Origin: Fimbriimonadaceae bacterium
GTDB taxonomy: Bacteria > Armatimonadota > Fimbriimonadia > Fimbriimonadales > Fimbriimonadaceae
DNA: 64,000 nt
Direction: 5' to 3'
NCBI GenBank assembly: GCA_023957775.1
Contig: JAMLGR010000018.1
Coordinates: forward strand, 1-64,000
Shown here in pieces: positions 29,199 through 52,110 of the stretch. The first letter of the stretch is position 1; every line of letters begins with the position of its first letter. Under the pieces are notes generated by a model. It was not told the DNA's origin, searched no databases, and was given only the letters and a program-made list of their open reading frames with translations. A program made the translations under genes and the position numbers.

Positions 29199-30177
29199 AG
29201 TAGCGCAAATCGTCGATACCGCGGGCGAGCATGGGGATGCGCTCGACCCCGAGGCCGAACGCGAACCCGCTGTACTTCTCCGTGTCGATGGCGTACGACT
29301 CGAGGATGTTCGGGTGGATGAGGCCCGCGCCGCCCAGTTCGATCCAGCCGGAGGCCTTGCACACCGGGCACCCGCCGCCCTTGCAGAAGGGGCAGGAGAT
29401 CGCGTAATCCACTCCCGGTTCCACGAAGGGGAAGAAGTCGGGCCGGAACCGCACCTTCACGTCGTCGCCGAACATGGCGCGCGCGAACTGCCCAAGGGTG
29501 CCCTTGAGGTGGGCCATCGACACGCCCTCGTCGATCATAAACGCGTCGACTTGGTGGAACGTGTGGCCATGCGTCCGGTCCACCGCCTCGTTGCGGAAGC
29601 ACCGCCCGACGGTGAAGACGCGCAAGGGCGGCTTGACCTTCTCGAAGATGCGGCCCTGGAGCGCAGTGCACTGGGTGCGCAGCACGTGCGTGGCGTCGAT
29701 GTAGAACGTGTCCTGCTCGTCCATGGCGGGGTGGTCGGGCGGGTAGTTCAGCGCGTCGAAGTTGTACTTGGTGAGTTCGAGCTCGGGTGATTCGGCGTAG
29801 CGGAAACCCAGCCCGACCAGCACGTCGCGGATGCGGTTGGTCGCTTGCTGGAGCACGTGTTCGATCCCGACGCGAAGTGGCCGCGCGGGCATCGTCACGT
29901 CGAGGCGCTCCGCCTCGAACCGAGACGCTTGCTCGCCGCCCTTGAGCTGCTCCTGACGGGCCTCGATTTCCGCCTGGAGGCGCGCCTTCAGCTCGTTCAC
30001 TTTCTGTCCGAAGAGGGGCTTCTCTTCCGCGGGAAGGGTCCCGATCTGGCGCAGCAGGCCCGTGACCAGCCCGCTCTTTCCCAGGTAGCGAATCTCCAGC
30101 TCGCGCAACGACGCGGTGGCCTGGGCGTTGGCGATTTCGCTTCGCGCTTCCTCCTCGAGTGCTTCGATCGGTTGCAT
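29155..30177 (-). CDS. pheS: Phenylalanyl-tRNA synthetase alpha chain
   Basis: 340 aa. An N-terminal coiled coil (MQPIEALEEEARSEIANAQ onward) contacts tRNA; class II motifs follow (HPAMDEQDTFYI, motif 2 VFTVGRCFRNEAVDRTHGHT, motif 3 FAFGLGVERIPML). It carries a cysteine cluster ISCPFCKGGGCPVCKASGW, a zinc-knuckle-like insertion with two CxxC pairs just before the conserved GWIEL. It charges tRNA-Phe together with PheT. pheS and pheT are not adjacent here. Confidence 0.96.
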   Translation of the reverse strand: MQPIEALEEEARSEIANAQATASLRELEIRYLGKSGLVTGLLRQIGTLPAEEKPLFGQKVNELKARLQAEIEARQEQLKGGEQASRFEAERLDVTMPARPLRVGIEHVLQQATNRIRDVLVGLGFRYAESPELELTKYNFDALNYPPDHPAMDEQDTFYIDATHVLRTQCTALQGRIFEKVKPPLRVFTVGRCFRNEAVDRTHGHTFHQVDAFMIDEGVSMAHLKGTLGQFARAMFGDDVKVRFRPDFFPFVEPGVDYAISCPFCKGGGCPVCKASGWIELGGAGLIHPNILESYAIDTEKYSGFAFGLGVERIPMLARGIDDLRYFMENDLRFLEQFRA

Positions 30178-30339
30178 GCAGGCTCAGGTATGGCGCATGG
30201 AAGGGGCAGAATGCAACCTTCCCACACTCCAGCGGATGGTCGTCGACCGGAATTCACCCGAAGGGCACCATGTGAAATCCTGCGACAAATGCGGAACAAC
30301 CTCCGTGGGGACCGCTGCCCCGCTGGAGCACGAACAAGG

Positions 30340-30951
30340 ATGTCGGACGAACCCAAGGAAGCAACAGAAGAAGTCAAGAAGAAGAAGGGTGGGAAGCTCC
30401 CCATCGTCATCGCCCTCGTGGCCGTCTTGGCCGGTGGCGGCTTCTTCATGATGAAGGCCAAGGGGGGCAAGCACGAGCCGCCCCCGCTCAAGCTCGGCGC
30501 GATCGAGCCTCTCAAGGAGTTCTTGGTGAACCTGAAGGAGGGCAACGTCTACCTTCGCACCGAGATCGCGTTGCATTTCAAGGAGGGCTTCAAGAAGGAA
30601 GAGCTGGACAAATCCCTGCCGGCCGTGGAAGATGCGATCGTGACGTTGCTCGGGGCTCGAAGCTCGACCGAGATCCGAACGCTGGACGGGAAGGCTAAGC
30701 TCAAGCGCGATCTCGCTGAGGCCATCAACAAGGTGCTCGAGGCTGCCGAGAAGGCCGCGCATCCCGAGGAGGCCGCGGAGGAGGAGCCGGCGGCAAAGGA
30801 CGGCGAGAAGCAGACCTCGGACAAGAAGGACCCCAAGGCCGGAAAAGAAGCGAAGCATGACGAGGAGCCGCCCAAAGATCTGCACCCCGATTGGGACTCG
30901 CAGACGGGGCCTGTGCTCAAGCTCTACTTCACCAGCTTCGCCACGCAGTAA
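30340..30951 (+). CDS. fliL: Flagellar basal-body-associated protein FliL
   Basis: 203 aa. Lys-rich cytoplasmic start (EEVKKKKGGK), one helix (LPIVIALVAVLAGGGFFMM), then the FliL domain (PLKEFLVNLKEGNVYLRTEI, LRTEIALHFKEGFKKEEL, LPAVEDAIVTLLGARSSTE). An unusual Ala/Glu/Lys-rich low-complexity stretch near residues 145-180 is inserted before the final VLKLYFTSF strand. FliL surrounds the stators at the motor. It is separated from fliM by hairpins, so it is probably transcribed on its own. Confidence 0.88.
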   Translation: MSDEPKEATEEVKKKKGGKLPIVIALVAVLAGGGFFMMKAKGGKHEPPPLKLGAIEPLKEFLVNLKEGNVYLRTEIALHFKEGFKKEELDKSLPAVEDAIVTLLGARSSTEIRTLDGKAKLKRDLAEAINKVLEAAEKAAHPEEAAEEEPAAKDGEKQTSDKKDPKAGKEAKHDEEPPKDLHPDWDSQTGPVLKLYFTSFATQ

Positions 30952-30974
30952 AGACCACTGGAGAGGGATGGAGA

Positions 30975-31000
30975 GGGCTCGTACCGCAAGGTGCGGGCCC
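30975..31000 (+). terminator. Hairpin after fliL
   Basis: GGGCTCGTACC pairs with GGTGCGGGCCC around GCAA (11 bp with two G-T pairs), then TTCGTCGTTCTTCGTTGTT. It is T-rich rather than a pure T run. Confidence 0.55.
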
Positions 31001-31045
31001 TTCGTCGTTCTTCGTTGTTGGTCCTTGGGCCTTGGGCCCCCTTGT

Positions 31046-31073
31046 CAACCCTCGCGCGGGTTGTGAGGTTTTT
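31046..31073 (+). terminator. Second hairpin with T tract after fliL
   Basis: CAACCC/GGGTTG around a 6-nt loop, followed by TGAGGTTTTTC. With the hairpin at 30975 it insulates fliL from fliM. Confidence 0.55.
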
Positions 31074-31086
31074 CGACTCGCGGAGC

Positions 31087-31113
31087 TAAAGAAAGCGCGC
31101 TTGGAGCCGATAC
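31087..31113 (+). promoter_or_regulatory. Sigma-28 (FliA/WhiG-type) promoter of the fliM operon
   Basis: TAAAGAAA, an 11-nt spacer, then GCCGATAC fits the flagellar sigma-28 consensus TAAAG-N15-GCCGATAA with one mismatch in the -10. It lies ~64 nt before the fliM start and directly after the fliL hairpins, and no equally good sigma-70 box is present. Confidence 0.8.
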
Positions 31114-31176
31114 CCATACTGATGGCCCGAGAAGCGCCTCTCCGAAAGGGGCGGCTTGGGACCGAGGTTGCCGAGC

Positions 31177-32196
31177 GTGTCTGAAATCCTTTCCCAAGCT
31201 GAAATCGAAGCGCTGCTGAACTCCTTGAACACGGAGGACGGCGAGCCTGCGGCGTCGGAATCCGCCGACTTCGAAGGTTCGGCGCCGGTTGCACGGCCCC
31301 GGTCGAACAAGCCGAAGCAGACCATCGCCTACGAGATCTACGATTTCCGAAGACCGGACAAGTTCAGCAAGGACCAGTTGCGCACGCTTCAGATGCTGCA
31401 CGAGACGTTCGCGCGCCTCGCCGGCTCCTCGCTCTCCGCCTACCTGCGCACGCCGGTCGCCGTGGACCTGATCTCCCTGGAGCAGGTTCCCTACGAAGAG
31501 TATCTGCGCAGCATCAACCAGAGCGTCTTCACCATTCTCTCGCTGCCCCCGCTCTCCGGCCAAGCGGTCCTGGAGTGCGAATTCAGTTTGATCTTCTCGA
31601 TGATCGACCGGATGTTGGGCGGACCCGGCAAGGGCATTCCCCGCAACGTGCTGACCGACATCGAGCGCCCCCTGGTCCGCCAGATTCTCGAGCGCCTGTT
31701 CGGCGCGCTGAAGACGTCTTGGGAGGGCGTCGTCATGGTGAATCCCGGGATCGAGGGGATGGAGACGAGCGCCCAGTTCGTGCAGATCGCGCCGCCAAGC
31801 GACATCGTCGTCACGGTGCTGCTCGAGGTGAAGGTTGGAAGCCAGCGGGGCGCCATGAGCCTCTGCGTTCCGTACGTGGTGCTCAAACCGATCACCACGA
31901 AGCTCAGTGGGCAGAAGTGGTTCGCGACGAACAACCGCAAGAGCGGAAAAGGCGCGCGGGCGGTGCTCACCCACAAGTTGCAGGGCGCCCGCGTCGAGTG
32001 TTCGGTCCACCTGGGCAACGCCAAGATCACGATGAACGAGTTCGTGAATCTCAAGCCGGGCGATGTGGTTCGGCTCGACCAGCGGACGGAGCGCGAGCTG
32101 CGGCTGCTCATCGGCAACGTCCCCAAATTTCACGGCAAGCCGGCCCTCCAAGGCAAAAACGTCGTGTTCGCTGTTTCGCATCCGATCGAGGAGTAG
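31177..32196 (+). CDS. fliM: Flagellar motor switch protein FliM
   Basis: 339 aa. N-terminal CheY-P-binding peptide SEILSQAEIEALLNSL, then the CheC-like middle domain (DKFSKDQLRTLQMLHETFAR, FSLIFSMIDRMLGGPGKG) and a C-terminal SpoA domain that stacks with FliN (NLKPGDVVRLDQ). It forms the C-ring and sets rotation direction. The GTG at 31177 gives the expected FliM start; a TTG at 31156 is also in frame. First gene of fliM-N-O-P-Q-R-flhB behind a sigma-28 promoter. Confidence 0.96.
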   Translation: MSEILSQAEIEALLNSLNTEDGEPAASESADFEGSAPVARPRSNKPKQTIAYEIYDFRRPDKFSKDQLRTLQMLHETFARLAGSSLSAYLRTPVAVDLISLEQVPYEEYLRSINQSVFTILSLPPLSGQAVLECEFSLIFSMIDRMLGGPGKGIPRNVLTDIERPLVRQILERLFGALKTSWEGVVMVNPGIEGMETSAQFVQIAPPSDIVVTVLLEVKVGSQRGAMSLCVPYVVLKPITTKLSGQKWFATNNRKSGKGARAVLTHKLQGARVECSVHLGNAKITMNEFVNLKPGDVVRLDQRTERELRLLIGNVPKFHGKPALQGKNVVFAVSHPIEE

Positions 32197-32209
32197 GAGT
32201 ACCCCTTCC

Positions 32210-33115
32210 ATGTCCGTTCAACCCAGTGAATTGATCAACCAACTTGCCCCCCTGCAGGAGGGCATCTGGCAGACGGTCTCCAAGACCGTCTCCGAAGCGG
32301 CGGGCCAAGAGATCCAGTTCGCCAGCCCCCTGTGCATGCAGGCGAACCCGCAGGAGTTGATCGCCGAGTTTAACGCGCCGGTGCTCGCCGTGCAGTTCGC
32401 GTTCGGCGGGATCCCCGAAAGCCAACAGGTCGTCCTGCTCACGCAGGAGACTTTCGTGGCCTTCGCGTCGCTGGTCAAGCAGGAGCTGGTCGAGAGCGCG
32501 GACGAGAACCTCGTGGCGGACGTCCGTCCGGCGCTCGAGGCGCTCGTTCAGGGCCTCTGCCTGTCGATCGGAGAGAATCTGGGCGAACCCGTCGTCGCGA
32601 CGGGCCTCACGTTCCGGTTCCAGAACTTCGCCTTTCCGCAAAACATGCAGCGCGGCGAAGAGATCGCCCGAACGCAGATCGCGATGTCGGGCGAAGACCT
32701 CAACGGCACGGCGATCTGGCTGATGGACTTCGACTCCGTGGCCCACGCCTTGGCGGTGGAGTACAGCCCCGAGATTCCCGAGAGTCCGTTTTCTCAAGTT
32801 GCGGAGGCGCCCGCCGGCCCCGCGGTTCCGTTCATCCACGAGGAAACGGCGGGCATGGAGCTCGTGCGCGACATCCCGCTTGAAATCACCGTCGAGTTGG
32901 GGCGTGTGAAAATGCTGGTCAAAGATGTCTTGGAGCTGGGCACGGGCTCGATCGTCGAGATCGACAAAGCGGCGGGCGAGCCGGTGGACGTCCTCGTCAA
33001 CGGCCTGAAAGTCGCGCGTGGGGAAGTGGTCGTGATCGAGGACAACTTCGGCGTCCGAATCACCGAGGTCATCAACCCCAACGAGCGACTCGGCGCCCTC
33101 GGAGAGGTCGCCTAG
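32210..33115 (+). CDS. fliN: Flagellar motor switch protein FliN (long, FliY-like)
   Basis: 301 aa. The last ~85 residues are the SpoA/FliN domain: LVRDIPLEITVELGRVKMLV, LELGTGSIVEIDKAAGEPVD and VEV-like KVARGEVVVIEDNFGVRITE. The first ~200 residues are a CheC/CheX-like domain (QEIQFASPLCM, FEVLVKQEL-like FASLVKQELVESADENL), as in FliY of Bacillus, so this is the long form rather than the ~130-aa enteric FliN. It sits on the C-ring under FliM. AGGAG lies 10 nt before the ATG. Confidence 0.92.
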   Translation: MSVQPSELINQLAPLQEGIWQTVSKTVSEAAGQEIQFASPLCMQANPQELIAEFNAPVLAVQFAFGGIPESQQVVLLTQETFVAFASLVKQELVESADENLVADVRPALEALVQGLCLSIGENLGEPVVATGLTFRFQNFAFPQNMQRGEEIARTQIAMSGEDLNGTAIWLMDFDSVAHALAVEYSPEIPESPFSQVAEAPAGPAVPFIHEETAGMELVRDIPLEITVELGRVKMLVKDVLELGTGSIVEIDKAAGEPVDVLVNGLKVARGEVVVIEDNFGVRITEVINPNERLGALGEVA

Positions 33116-33637
33116 ATGCGAACTCATTCGTTCGCCGCACTGATGGTGTTGGCGACGTCCGCAGGGGCGCAAGACCTCGGCACAAAACCGGACCCGCTCA
33201 CGTCCGCCGCGGCATCCTCGGGCGGTGGTCTCGGCCTCATGGCGTTGGTGCAGATGCTCATCGCCTTGGGCATCGTGCTCGCGGTCGTGAAGTGGGCTCT
33301 GCCCCGATTCGCCTCTTCGTTCAACAAACGGCTGGCGCCGGGCGTGGGAAGCCCGATCAAGATCGAGGAGTCCGCGGCGTTTGCCGGCGGCAACCTCTAC
33401 GTGGTTTCCGTCCGCGGCCGCGACCTGTTGCTCGCTTCGAGCCAGGCCGGCGTCTCGTGTCTGGCCGACTTGACGCCCGCCGAGACGCGGCCCGAGGCCC
33501 CTGCGTTCGGCGACCTTTTGGAGCGCGCCCAACGGACCCCTTCCCGGGCCGCGATCGCCGTCGACGAACCGACCCCCGAACCCGACCCCTCGGCGATCGC
33601 CGAGGCCCTGAGCCGCCTCGACCGCCTTGCCGGCTGA
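33116..33637 (+). CDS. fliO: Flagellar export protein FliO
   Basis: 173 aa. Signal-like start (MRTHSFAALMVLATSAGAQ), one clear helix (LMALVQMLIALGIVLAVVKW), then a cytoplasmic part with the FliO pattern SPIKIEESAAFAGGNLYVVS and RDLLLASSQAGVSCLADL. FliO helps assemble the FliP ring of the export gate. It begins immediately after the fliN stop codon. Confidence 0.85.
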   Translation: MRTHSFAALMVLATSAGAQDLGTKPDPLTSAAASSGGGLGLMALVQMLIALGIVLAVVKWALPRFASSFNKRLAPGVGSPIKIEESAAFAGGNLYVVSVRGRDLLLASSQAGVSCLADLTPAETRPEAPAFGDLLERAQRTPSRAAIAVDEPTPEPDPSAIAEALSRLDRLAG

Positions 33638-33650
33638 CCCCGATCGACCT

Positions 33651-34412
33651 ATGCGTGCCCTCTTCCTTGCGCGAACGACCCTGGTGATTTTGCTGGTGCT
33701 GGGCGCCTGCGCGGCTTGGGCGCAGAGCGGGCTCCCGACGCCCCAGGTCTCGATCAACATGGGTGCCGGCGCGCCTGGAAAGGACGGCGACGTGAGTGCG
33801 TCGCTTCAGATCCTGGCGATGCTGACGGTGCTCAGCCTCGCTCCCGCGATCCTGATCCTCACGACGGCTTTCACCCGCATCGTCATCATTTTCGGATTCC
33901 TGCGAAGCGCGATCGGCACCCCCACGATCCCGCCGAACCAGGTCGTGATCGGCTTGAGCCTCTTCCTCACGTTCTTCGTCATGGCGCCCACCTACGACCA
34001 GGTGAACACGCAAGCCCTCCAGCCGTACCTGGCCAAGGAGATCCCGATGAACACCGCCATCGAGCGGGCGCAGGGTCCGGTGCGGGAGTTCATGCTCAAG
34101 AACACCTACGAGAAGGACTTGGGACTGTTCCTTCGGCTCTCGAAACAGAGCCCCAAGACCCGGAACGACGTCTCGCTGGTGTCGCTGATTCCCGCCTTTG
34201 TGATCAGCGAACTCAAGACGGCCTTTCTCATCGGCTTCTATCTCTTCGTTCCGTTCCTGATCATCGACCTCATCGTCGCCAGCGGCCTGATGTCCATGGG
34301 CATGATGATGCTGCCGCCCACGGTCGTCTCGCTGCCGGCCAAGGTCTTGGTGTTCGTTCTGGCCGACGGGTGGAGCACGTTGGTGAGCGCCATCCTGGCG
34401 GGGTACCGATAA
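33651..34412 (+). CDS. fliP: Flagellar type III export gate protein FliP
   Basis: 253 aa. Cleavable signal peptide (TLVILLVLGACAAWAQ), then four helices with the family signatures TAFTRIVIIFGFLRSAIGT, IGLSLFLTFFVMAPT, LIPAFVISELKTAFLIGF and MSMGMMMLPPTVVSLP. FliP pentamers with FliQ and FliR form the export gate core in the membrane. ATG 33651 chosen; an ATG-free extension upstream is over fliO. Confidence 0.96.
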   Translation: MRALFLARTTLVILLVLGACAAWAQSGLPTPQVSINMGAGAPGKDGDVSASLQILAMLTVLSLAPAILILTTAFTRIVIIFGFLRSAIGTPTIPPNQVVIGLSLFLTFFVMAPTYDQVNTQALQPYLAKEIPMNTAIERAQGPVREFMLKNTYEKDLGLFLRLSKQSPKTRNDVSLVSLIPAFVISELKTAFLIGFYLFVPFLIIDLIVASGLMSMGMMMLPPTVVSLPAKVLVFVLADGWSTLVSAILAGYR

Positions 34413-34413
34413 G

Positions 34414-34683
34414 ATGGACGAGTCCGCCGTTCTCGAATTCGCCCGGCAAGGCATCGTGACCGCGCTGATGGTCTCGCTGCCCGTGTTGGCGGTCGCTCTG
34501 TTTCTCGGGGTCATGGTGAGCGTGTTTCAAGCCATCACCCAGGTCCAAGAGGCGACGCTCACGTTTGTACCGAAGATGTTCGGGGTTGCGCTCGTGGGGG
34601 CGCTCATGGGCAGTTGGATGCTCAACACGCTGGTCTCCTTCCTGATGATCGCGTTCGAGCACGTGGCGCGGGCGGGGAGGTAG
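34414..34683 (+). CDS. fliQ: Flagellar export gate protein FliQ
   Basis: 89 aa, two helices: ALMVSLPVLAVALFLGVMVS and ALVGALMGSWMLNTLVSFL. It carries the conserved FQAITQVQEATLTFVPKM loop. It packs around the FliP/FliR core of the export gate. It starts 1 nt after the fliP stop and ends 3 nt before fliR. Confidence 0.95.
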   Translation: MDESAVLEFARQGIVTALMVSLPVLAVALFLGVMVSVFQAITQVQEATLTFVPKMFGVALVGALMGSWMLNTLVSFLMIAFEHVARAGR

Positions 34684-34686
34684 CGG

Positions 34687-35457
34687 ATGCGGTTCGACGA
34701 GCCGATGCTGTTCGCATTCCTGCTCGTCTTCGTGCGCTGTTCGGCGATGCTGGTCACGTCGCCCGTGTTCGGGGCGCAGAACACCCCGCTTCCGGTGCGC
34801 ATTCTCACGACCCTCTCCATTTCGGGGGCGATGACGCTCGCGCTCAAGCCCAACGGCATCGAGCCGCCCGGCGACTTGTACCTCCTGGCCGCCGCGGTGA
34901 CGCACGAGGCGTTCGCGGGGGTCGTGATCGGCATGTTCCTCCAACTCGTGCTTCAGGCGGCGTTGATGGCGGGCGCCCTTCTTGACCTTCAGGCGGGGTT
35001 GGGCATGAGCCAGACCCTGAACCCGGTGTCGGGAGTCTCCGCGACGGTGCTTTCGCAATACAAGTTCATGCTGGCGGTCGTGGTGTTCCTTGCTGTGAAC
35101 GGCCACCACGTGATGCTCCAGGCGTTCGCCGACAGCTACAAGGCCCTGCCGTCGGCGGGCACGCAGGGCCTCCAAATCCTGCAGGACCACCTGCTGCTCG
35201 CGATCGGTCGCATGAGCTTGGTGGCGCTCCAGATCGCGGCGCCCGTGATGGCGGTGGGCATGGTGGTCGACGCCTCGCTGGGCGTCGTCAACAAGGCCGT
35301 TCCGCAGATGCAGGCGTTCCTGGTCGGTCTCCCGGCGAAGATCCTGATGGGACTCGTCGCGATGAGCCTGACGCTTCCCGCCCTCGCCTCGGCGGTGCAG
35401 ACGGGCGTCGATTCCGCGGCCGAATCGATCTACGCCACGTTCCAGGTGCGGAGGTAG
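34687..35457 (+). CDS. fliR: Flagellar export gate protein FliR
   Basis: 256 aa with six to seven helices; the FliR-typical FLLVFVRCSAMLVTSPVFG start, GVVIGMFLQLVLQAALMAG and LDLQAGLGMSQTLNPVSGVS are present, and the C-terminal NKAVPQMQAFLVGLPAKIL. It completes the FliP5-Q4-R1 gate. It lies between fliQ and flhB with gaps of 3 nt each. Confidence 0.95.
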   Translation: MRFDEPMLFAFLLVFVRCSAMLVTSPVFGAQNTPLPVRILTTLSISGAMTLALKPNGIEPPGDLYLLAAAVTHEAFAGVVIGMFLQLVLQAALMAGALLDLQAGLGMSQTLNPVSGVSATVLSQYKFMLAVVVFLAVNGHHVMLQAFADSYKALPSAGTQGLQILQDHLLLAIGRMSLVALQIAAPVMAVGMVVDASLGVVNKAVPQMQAFLVGLPAKILMGLVAMSLTLPALASAVQTGVDSAAESIYATFQVRR

Positions 35458-35460
35458 GCC

Positions 35461-36534
35461 ATGGCGGAGCAGGCCAGCGCCCAGGAAAGGACCGAAGAAG
35501 CCACACCCAGGCGGCGTCAAGAAGCGCGCCGCAAGGGCACGGTCGCCCGTTCCGCAGACCTGTCCGGGGCGATCGTCCTCGTGCTGTTGATGTTCGTGAT
35601 GCCCGCGGCCATGGGGAACCTGGGGTTGGGCTTCATGCGCGGGTTTGCCATCGCCATGGCGACGCTTCCGGCGACGATGGACCACCCGACCCTGACCGCC
35701 TTCGCGTGGCGCTCTCTCGAACCGCCCTTGATGGGTCTGCTCCCGATCGTATTCACCGCGATGGTCGCCGGACTCGCCGCCAACTTCGCCCAGGTCGGGT
35801 TCGTGCTCTCCACCGAGTCGCTCTCGCCCCGCCTCGACAAGTTGAACCCGATGCAGGGGTTCAAGCGGCTGTTCTCCATGGCGGCGACGGTCGAGGGCCT
35901 CAAAGCGGCCGCGAAGAGCTTCCTTTTCGGTCTGTTGGCTTGGACGACCGTGCAGGCGCACTGGAACGAGCTGGTCAACCTCTCCTGGACGACCACGGGG
36001 GGAGCGATGGCGGCGATCGGGGGCCTGCTGCACGCCATCTTCCTCAAAGTCGCGATCGCGTGGCTGATTCTCGCGGCGCTCGATTATTTCTACCAACGCA
36101 AGCGCACGCAAAAGCAGTTGATGATGACCAAGGACGAGGTTCGGCGCGAGATGAAGGAGAGCGAGACCTCCCCGGAACTGAAGCAGGCCCAGGCCCTGCG
36201 CCGAAGGCGTCTCTCCAAGGGAAGAATGATGGACGCGGTTCGCAACGCCGACGTCATCGTGACGAACCCGACGCACTACTCGGTCGCGCTCAAGTACGAG
36301 GCGGGGAAGATGCACGCCCCTATGGTCGTCGCCAAGGGTGCGGACTACATCGCTCTGAAGATTCGGGAGGTGGCCGCGGAGCACCGGGTACCGGTGATTC
36401 CCGAGCCTCCCCTGGCTCGGGCGTTGTTCCGGCAGTGCGAGGCCGGCGACTTCGTGCCACCGGAGCTCTTCCAAGCCGTCGCCGAGATTCTCGCCCACGT
36501 GTACCGCACGATCCACGGCTTGGCCGAGGAGTAG
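35461..36534 (+). CDS. flhB: Flagellar export switch protein FlhB
   Basis: 357 aa. Basic start (QERTEEATPRRRQEARRKG), four helices, then the cytoplasmic domain with the autocleavage site in NADVIVTNPTHYSVALKYE (cleavage between N and P of NPTH). FlhB switches the export apparatus from rod/hook to filament substrates. Last gene of the run; flhA, normally its partner, is not in the window. Confidence 0.97.
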   Translation: MAEQASAQERTEEATPRRRQEARRKGTVARSADLSGAIVLVLLMFVMPAAMGNLGLGFMRGFAIAMATLPATMDHPTLTAFAWRSLEPPLMGLLPIVFTAMVAGLAANFAQVGFVLSTESLSPRLDKLNPMQGFKRLFSMAATVEGLKAAAKSFLFGLLAWTTVQAHWNELVNLSWTTTGGAMAAIGGLLHAIFLKVAIAWLILAALDYFYQRKRTQKQLMMTKDEVRREMKESETSPELKQAQALRRRRLSKGRMMDAVRNADVIVTNPTHYSVALKYEAGKMHAPMVVAKGADYIALKIREVAAEHRVPVIPEPPLARALFRQCEAGDFVPPELFQAVAEILAHVYRTIHGLAEE

Positions 36535-36566: not shown

Positions 36567-37025
36567 ATGGCGACGGTGCACGAGTATGCGGTGAAGGTGG
36601 AGTGGTCGGGCGGAAGAATGGGTTGCGGCACGGTAGGTGCCGAGCGCATCTCCTCGCCGCTGCCGTTGGCCGTGCCGCCCGAGTTTCAGGGAGCAGGAAA
36701 CGGGACGAACCCCGAAGAGATGCTCGCCTGCGCGATCTGCGCCTGCTACGCGATCACCTTCGGCATCATCGCGGAGAATCGGAAGCTTCCCGTGGCGTCG
36801 TTCCGCACGGAAGCCACCGGCGAGGTCGAGCAGAACGGCCCGCAGTTCAAGTACCGTTCGGTCACAATCCGACCCACGATCGTTCTCTCGGCGGATGCCA
36901 CAGACGAGCAGGTGGCGCTCACCGAGGAGATGGCGCACAAAGCCGACGCCTACTGCATCATCACCAACGCGGTGCGAGGAAATGTCGCCATCGAGGTCGA
37001 ACCGACGATACGTAGAGGTCCATAA
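36567..37025 (+). CDS. OsmC/Ohr family protein
   Basis: 152 aa. OsmC fold with the two redox cysteine regions: NPEEMLACAICACYAITFGI and HKADAYCIITNAVRGNV. Members reduce organic hydroperoxides; here the first region has three Cys rather than one, so the peroxidatic one cannot be fixed by eye. TAGAAT lies 7 nt before the ATG and there is no ribosome binding site, so the message is probably leaderless. tpiA starts directly after its stop. Confidence 0.88.
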   Translation: MATVHEYAVKVEWSGGRMGCGTVGAERISSPLPLAVPPEFQGAGNGTNPEEMLACAICACYAITFGIIAENRKLPVASFRTEATGEVEQNGPQFKYRSVTIRPTIVLSADATDEQVALTEEMAHKADAYCIITNAVRGNVAIEVEPTIRRGP

Positions 37026-51834: not shown

Positions 51835-52110
51835 ATGCCAATGCCAAGCACAGCTAGAACGGAATCGTCGCAGCGCGCGGTTCGACTAACGAAAAGGGAG
51901 ATCGAGGTTCTGAGCCTCATCGCCCAGGGTCACAGCAGCAAGGAAGCCGCGGAGACCCTGTACGTATCGAAGCGCACTGTGGACTTCCACCTGGCAAACA
52001 TCTACGACAAGCTCCAGGTCAACAACCGTGTTCAAGCGTTCCGCGCTGCGACGCGATTGGGCCTGATCCCGTTCGAGCCGACGTTCGGCCACGCACGGGG
52101 AGAGTCGTAG
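51835..52110 (+). CDS. LuxR-type (GerE) helix-turn-helix regulator
   Basis: 91 aa, a stand-alone GerE domain: LTKREIEVLSLIAQGHSSKE, AAETLYVSKRTVDFHLANIY and DKLQVNNRVQAFRAATRLG. With no receiver or sensor domain it is like GerE of Bacillus and may act as a co-regulator. GAGGGG lies 6 nt before the ATG, one of the better ribosome binding sites in the window. It stands alone after 247 nt of intergenic DNA. Confidence 0.9.
   Translation: MPMPSTARTESSQRAVRLTKREIEVLSLIAQGHSSKEAAETLYVSKRTVDFHLANIYDKLQVNNRVQAFRAATRLGLIPFEPTFGHARGES

Follow-up and report, generated by a model that had tools for sequence, protein, structure and literature searches.

Which sigma factor starts transcription of the flagellar switch and export-gate operon fliM-N-O-P-Q-R-flhB, and where does this place the operon in the flagellar hierarchy? 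What is known of flagellar gene control comes mostly from Proteobacteria and Bacillota, and the usual rule is that sigma-28 is active only once the export gate is complete. The operon considered here lies in a window of 64,000 nucleotides (the whole stretch of DNA that was analysed) from a 3.5 Mb, 27-contig MAG of Fimbriimonadaceae, in the little-studied phylum Armatimonadota; a literature search on flagella in Armatimonadetes, Fimbriimonas and Armatimonadota gave no title pointing to flagellar regulation there. The closest relatives of the window's FliM protein are from Fimbriimonadaceae and other Armatimonadota MAGs. Gene names from fliM to flhB come from NCBIfam models, and the gene order given in a preliminary description of the locus is borne out by these matches, with fliO and fliQ missing the curated cut-offs. 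For fliL, the NCBIfam FliL models likewise match below cut-off. The FliM start codon is probably the GTG at 31177 (MSEILSQAEIEALL) over the TTG at 31156.

30340..30951, + strand: fliL, the upstream gene (the ORF that holds it matches Pfam PF03748 FliL with E 1.4e-15; start codon inferred)
31177..32196, + strand: fliM, GTG start (TIGR01397, 267.6 bits, above cut-off)
32210..33115, + strand: fliN/fliY-type switch protein (TIGR02480 above cut-off; FliY model PRK08119, E 3e-37)
33116..33637, + strand: fliO, a weak match (TIGR03500, E 1e-4, below cut-off; operon position)
33627..34412, + strand: fliP (TIGR01103 above cut-off)
34414..34683, + strand: fliQ (TIGR01402, E 2e-24, just below cut-off)
34687..35457, + strand: fliR (TIGR01400 above cut-off)
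35461..36534, + strand: flhB (TIGR00328 above cut-off)

A conserved FliA-type box precedes fliM

Positions 31087-31094 read TAAAGAAA, followed by an 11-nt spacer and GCCGATAC at 31106-31113, just as the preliminary description had reported, and the end of the -10 box lies 64 bp from the FliM GTG. Against the E. coli box TAAAGTTT-N11-GCCGATAA, 12/16 positions agree and the octamer spacing of 11 nt is exact. The sole exact TAAAG-N14-GCCGATA is the fliM box site. The looser pattern TAAAG-N13/16-CGATA is not enriched in the 3.5 Mb genome (3 occurrences versus 3 for a reversed-pattern control), and a search for the box with 3 mismatches across the window gave no excess. From the counts of one genome alone the box is statistically weak, and would not convince by itself.

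The fliM upstream regions of relatives were read by eye before a three-block matrix was fitted to them, and the arrangement CCCTRAAGAA-N12-GCCGATAAC-N3-ACTGATRGCC was found to recur in 48/52 distinct regions (this genome and its relatives). In the window the three blocks are the following.

31084..31093, + strand: -35 block AGCTAAAGAA (consensus CCCTRAAGAA), kept in 48/52 distinct fliM upstream regions
31106..31114, + strand: -10 block GCCGATACC (consensus GCCGATAAC), placed by conservation and leave-one-out score
31118..31127, + strand: conserved ACTGATGGCC (consensus ACTGATRGCC), presumed transcription start, placed by conservation and present also in the order-level family f5

These 48 regions score above 25 bits, against a maximum of 15 for shuffled sequences from upstream of other flagellar genes. 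The count of 48/52 is in part circular, as the same fliM regions served to train the matrix, and related genera are not independent. With the window's own sequence excluded from training, the leave-one-out matrix gives 24.5 bits for the window's -35 and -10 blocks, and the next best site among the 379,418 strand-positions scanned in this genome (∼190 kb on both strands, i.e. the window and flagellar contig stretches; the leaving-out applies only to the window's own score) reaches 16.5 bits. The gene upstream of fliM often differs between genera, yet the promoter remains with fliM. Family f2 mostly retains the -35 and -10 blocks, with the ACTGA block absent. As the box is conserved across relatives, it is more than a chance resemblance. 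In three genomes of family f5 (L251, L253 and L264), the fliM promoter and its downstream block fall within the coding sequence of fliL, a considerable distance upstream of fliM, and are retained there.

Two other readings of the leader were dropped: a leader peptide starting from the ATG inside ACTGATGG, where relatives show ACTGAC, ACTGATA or ACTGAA, and a hammerhead-like reading of CTGATGA, of which the GAAA part is missing. For a leader hairpin after ACTGATRGCC a conserved fold was not established (mean z -1.3, with varying structures), and the fliM leader matched no Rfam family at its gathering score.

FliA, FlgM and the other flagellar promoters

A search of the genome for fliA and flgM found both above cut-off. 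FliA matches TIGR02479 with 243.5 bits and has sigma-28-type chains (FliA, WhiG) among its best PDB matches. FlgM is identified by PF04316 at C21:36897-37022 and is above cut-off in 34/37 genomes of the order; RpoN is encoded in the same genome as well. Because the fliM box is conserved across genera and the genome encodes both FliA and FlgM, the sigma-28 promoter claimed in the preliminary description is well supported, and the box is very probably read by FliA, as judged from sequence.

The same box before other flagellar genes, which that description proposed to look for, is found in the family in weaker versions and is weak in the genome itself. With reverse complements of the same upstream regions as control, matches to the fliM-trained matrix are in excess on the sense strand in relatives before flgM (p 1e-6), flgB (p 9e-6) and flgF (p 1e-5); the excess is weak before flagellins, and hardly any sites precede flgE (the names flgB, flgE and flgF rest on gene order and PF00460 matches). 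The genome itself has weak boxes before the flagellin genes, flgB and flgM, with flgM having ACCGTTCTT as its -10 and flgB scoring 15 bits. By eye only, the flagellin genes at L094, L112, L123, L127 and L135 seem to have in common a box of about CCTAAACTT-N-TTCCACATT-GCCGAAAAT, unlike that of fliM.

The flgM leader contains a c-di-GMP-I riboswitch (RF01051) at L222:286-368 (G000:C21, about 36685-36767) with 37.9 bits against a gathering score of 35, placed between the FliA-type promoter and flgM. It is found in 13 of the 20 family genomes tested, this genome included. Most of the papers found to mention a c-di-GMP riboswitch together with flgM are, by title, on Clostridioides (Clostridium) difficile.

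An inverted repeat upstream of the promoter

The preliminary description had placed the promoter behind two hairpins that cut off fliL. The first of these is a strong structure and likely the fliL terminator, with an imperfect U tract, whereas the second has a weak stem (folding z = -1.5) with a T run present and forms part of a conserved inverted repeat, AAACCTNA-N9-TNAGGTTT, that occurs also where fliL is not upstream.

30973..31002, + strand: strong GC-rich hairpin after fliL (terminator-like scan; folding z = -7.4 for 30960-31020)
31047..31071, no strand assigned: inverted repeat AACCCTCGCGCGGGTTGTGAGGTTT, putative activator site (12/14 positions of AAACCTNA-N9-TNAGGTTT)

Among 46 fliM regions, the repeat at its fixed offset from the -35 block gives a mean of 7.5/14 matches versus 3.3 (sd 0.26) elsewhere, and its dyad pairing is 3.4/8 versus 2.0 (sd 0.25) elsewhere. 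Its centre lies ∼60 bp upstream of the likely transcription start. The repeat also precedes flgF in most of the same-family genomes examined, where its distance to the -35 box is ∼9 bp shorter than at fliM, about one helical turn. Across 41 family genomes, 60 sites with at most one mismatch were counted versus 10 for a mirror control, an excess of ∼6-fold. Thirty of these sites were read in context, of which nine lie before flgF and one before fliM. By eye, further ones appeared to precede fliW, secretion or pilus genes (secretion/pilus at L270, L272 and L279), hinting at a wider surface-motility regulon.

The arrangement resembles class I activator-dependent promoters in that the site has dyad symmetry, is centred roughly 60 bp upstream and has a second placement about one helical turn away; the difference is that the polymerase is predicted to carry sigma-28, a form that usually needs no activator. 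We favour, with some reserve, a reading of the repeat as the activator site of a candidate dimeric regulator, in which the sign of the regulation is a guess. At 51835-52110 the window encodes a LuxR-type (GerE) DNA-binding protein that is small (91 aa) and stand-alone; it has no established tie to the repeat.

DISCUSSION

The best explanation, to which we assign a probability of roughly 80%, is that a FliA promoter serves fliM to flhB together with a repeat-bound activator inside a FliA-FlgM loop. RNA polymerase carrying FliA (sigma-28) would read TAAAG and GCCGATA, the sites being placed by conservation, start near 31118-31121 and drive fliM-N-O-P-Q-R-flhB. A dimeric regulator on 31047-31071 would probably assist as a class I-type activator. 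Because FlgM would restrain FliA, and flgM itself appears to have its own FliA-type promoter besides the c-di-GMP-I riboswitch, the export-gate operon probably lies inside this loop, with the repeat's regulator likely to give the first push. A further weak promoter upstream, or read-through from fliL, may also feed the operon.

Sigma-28 at this operon has precedents. In E. coli a FliA-bound promoter precedes fliLMNOPQR, which is controlled by both FlhDC and FliA (PMC4183435; PMC2855527). The contention that enteric bacteria drive these genes independently of sigma-28 is thus incorrect, given this FliA binding in E. coli (PMC4183435), and because of that dual control the proposed inversion of the hierarchy is not supported, a sigma-28 promoter here being insufficient by itself to argue for it. 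The two systems share the same operon core, a FliA-type box with GCCGATA and an apparent second regulator upstream, whereas the unit in the window leaves out fliL, takes in flhB, and has an upstream inverted repeat for a putative regulator. For the Bacillus subtilis fla/che operon, a sigma-D promoter, P(D-3), was reportedly described by West and colleagues in 2000. The main promoter of that operon is a sigma-A promoter with SwrA-DegU (PMC12826050). An early structural operon is within reach of a sigma-28-type factor in both cases, but the sigma-A promoter dominates in B. subtilis and a simple scan of the window's fliM region gave no sigma-70-like site. A literature search on Treponema sigma-28 fla operons gave no usable result. 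The present locus differs by its conserved repeat, and by FliA-type boxes being spread across several early genes.

The E. coli precedent at exactly this operon (PMC4183435) also raises a possible, though less probable, alternative, namely a dual promoter in which sigma-28 adds to a primary start made by another sigma factor with a master regulator, the repeat serving mainly that other start. The activator-like site and the encoded RpoN fit such an arrangement, but no sigma-70-like promoter was found in 29500-32500 by the simple scan, no sigma-54-type -24/-12 site was noticed (without a systematic search), and in two operons the spacing between the repeat and the sigma-28 boxes is fixed. We consider it unlikely that the inverted repeat with its T run instead insulates the operon as a conserved intrinsic terminator: in the window and at L263 it can indeed be read as a hairpin with T residues behind it, yet the RNA fold is weak here, many copies are without a T run, the repeat recurs before flgF, and its fixed offset from the -35 box and its genome-wide over-representation speak against this role. 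That GC-rich intergenic DNA merely happens to resemble a FliA box is highly improbable, even though loose patterns show no excess in this genome, as the box of the same gene is kept across dozens of genera and the leave-one-out margin is 8 bits.

Returning to the activator-assisted FliA promoter, we tentatively extend it to sigma-28 as the entry-level flagellar sigma factor of the order, a proposal that we regard as speculative: FliA would read fliM-flhB, flgB, flgF and flgM, an activator at AAACCTNA-N9-TNAGGTTT would serve fliM and flgF, and c-di-GMP would tune FlgM, giving a single-tier cascade. If one sigma factor with an activator does serve early and late genes alike, the rule of sigma-28 acting only once the gate is complete would fail here, and the c-di-GMP riboswitch of flgM would, if this is true, link the second messenger directly to sigma-28 activity.
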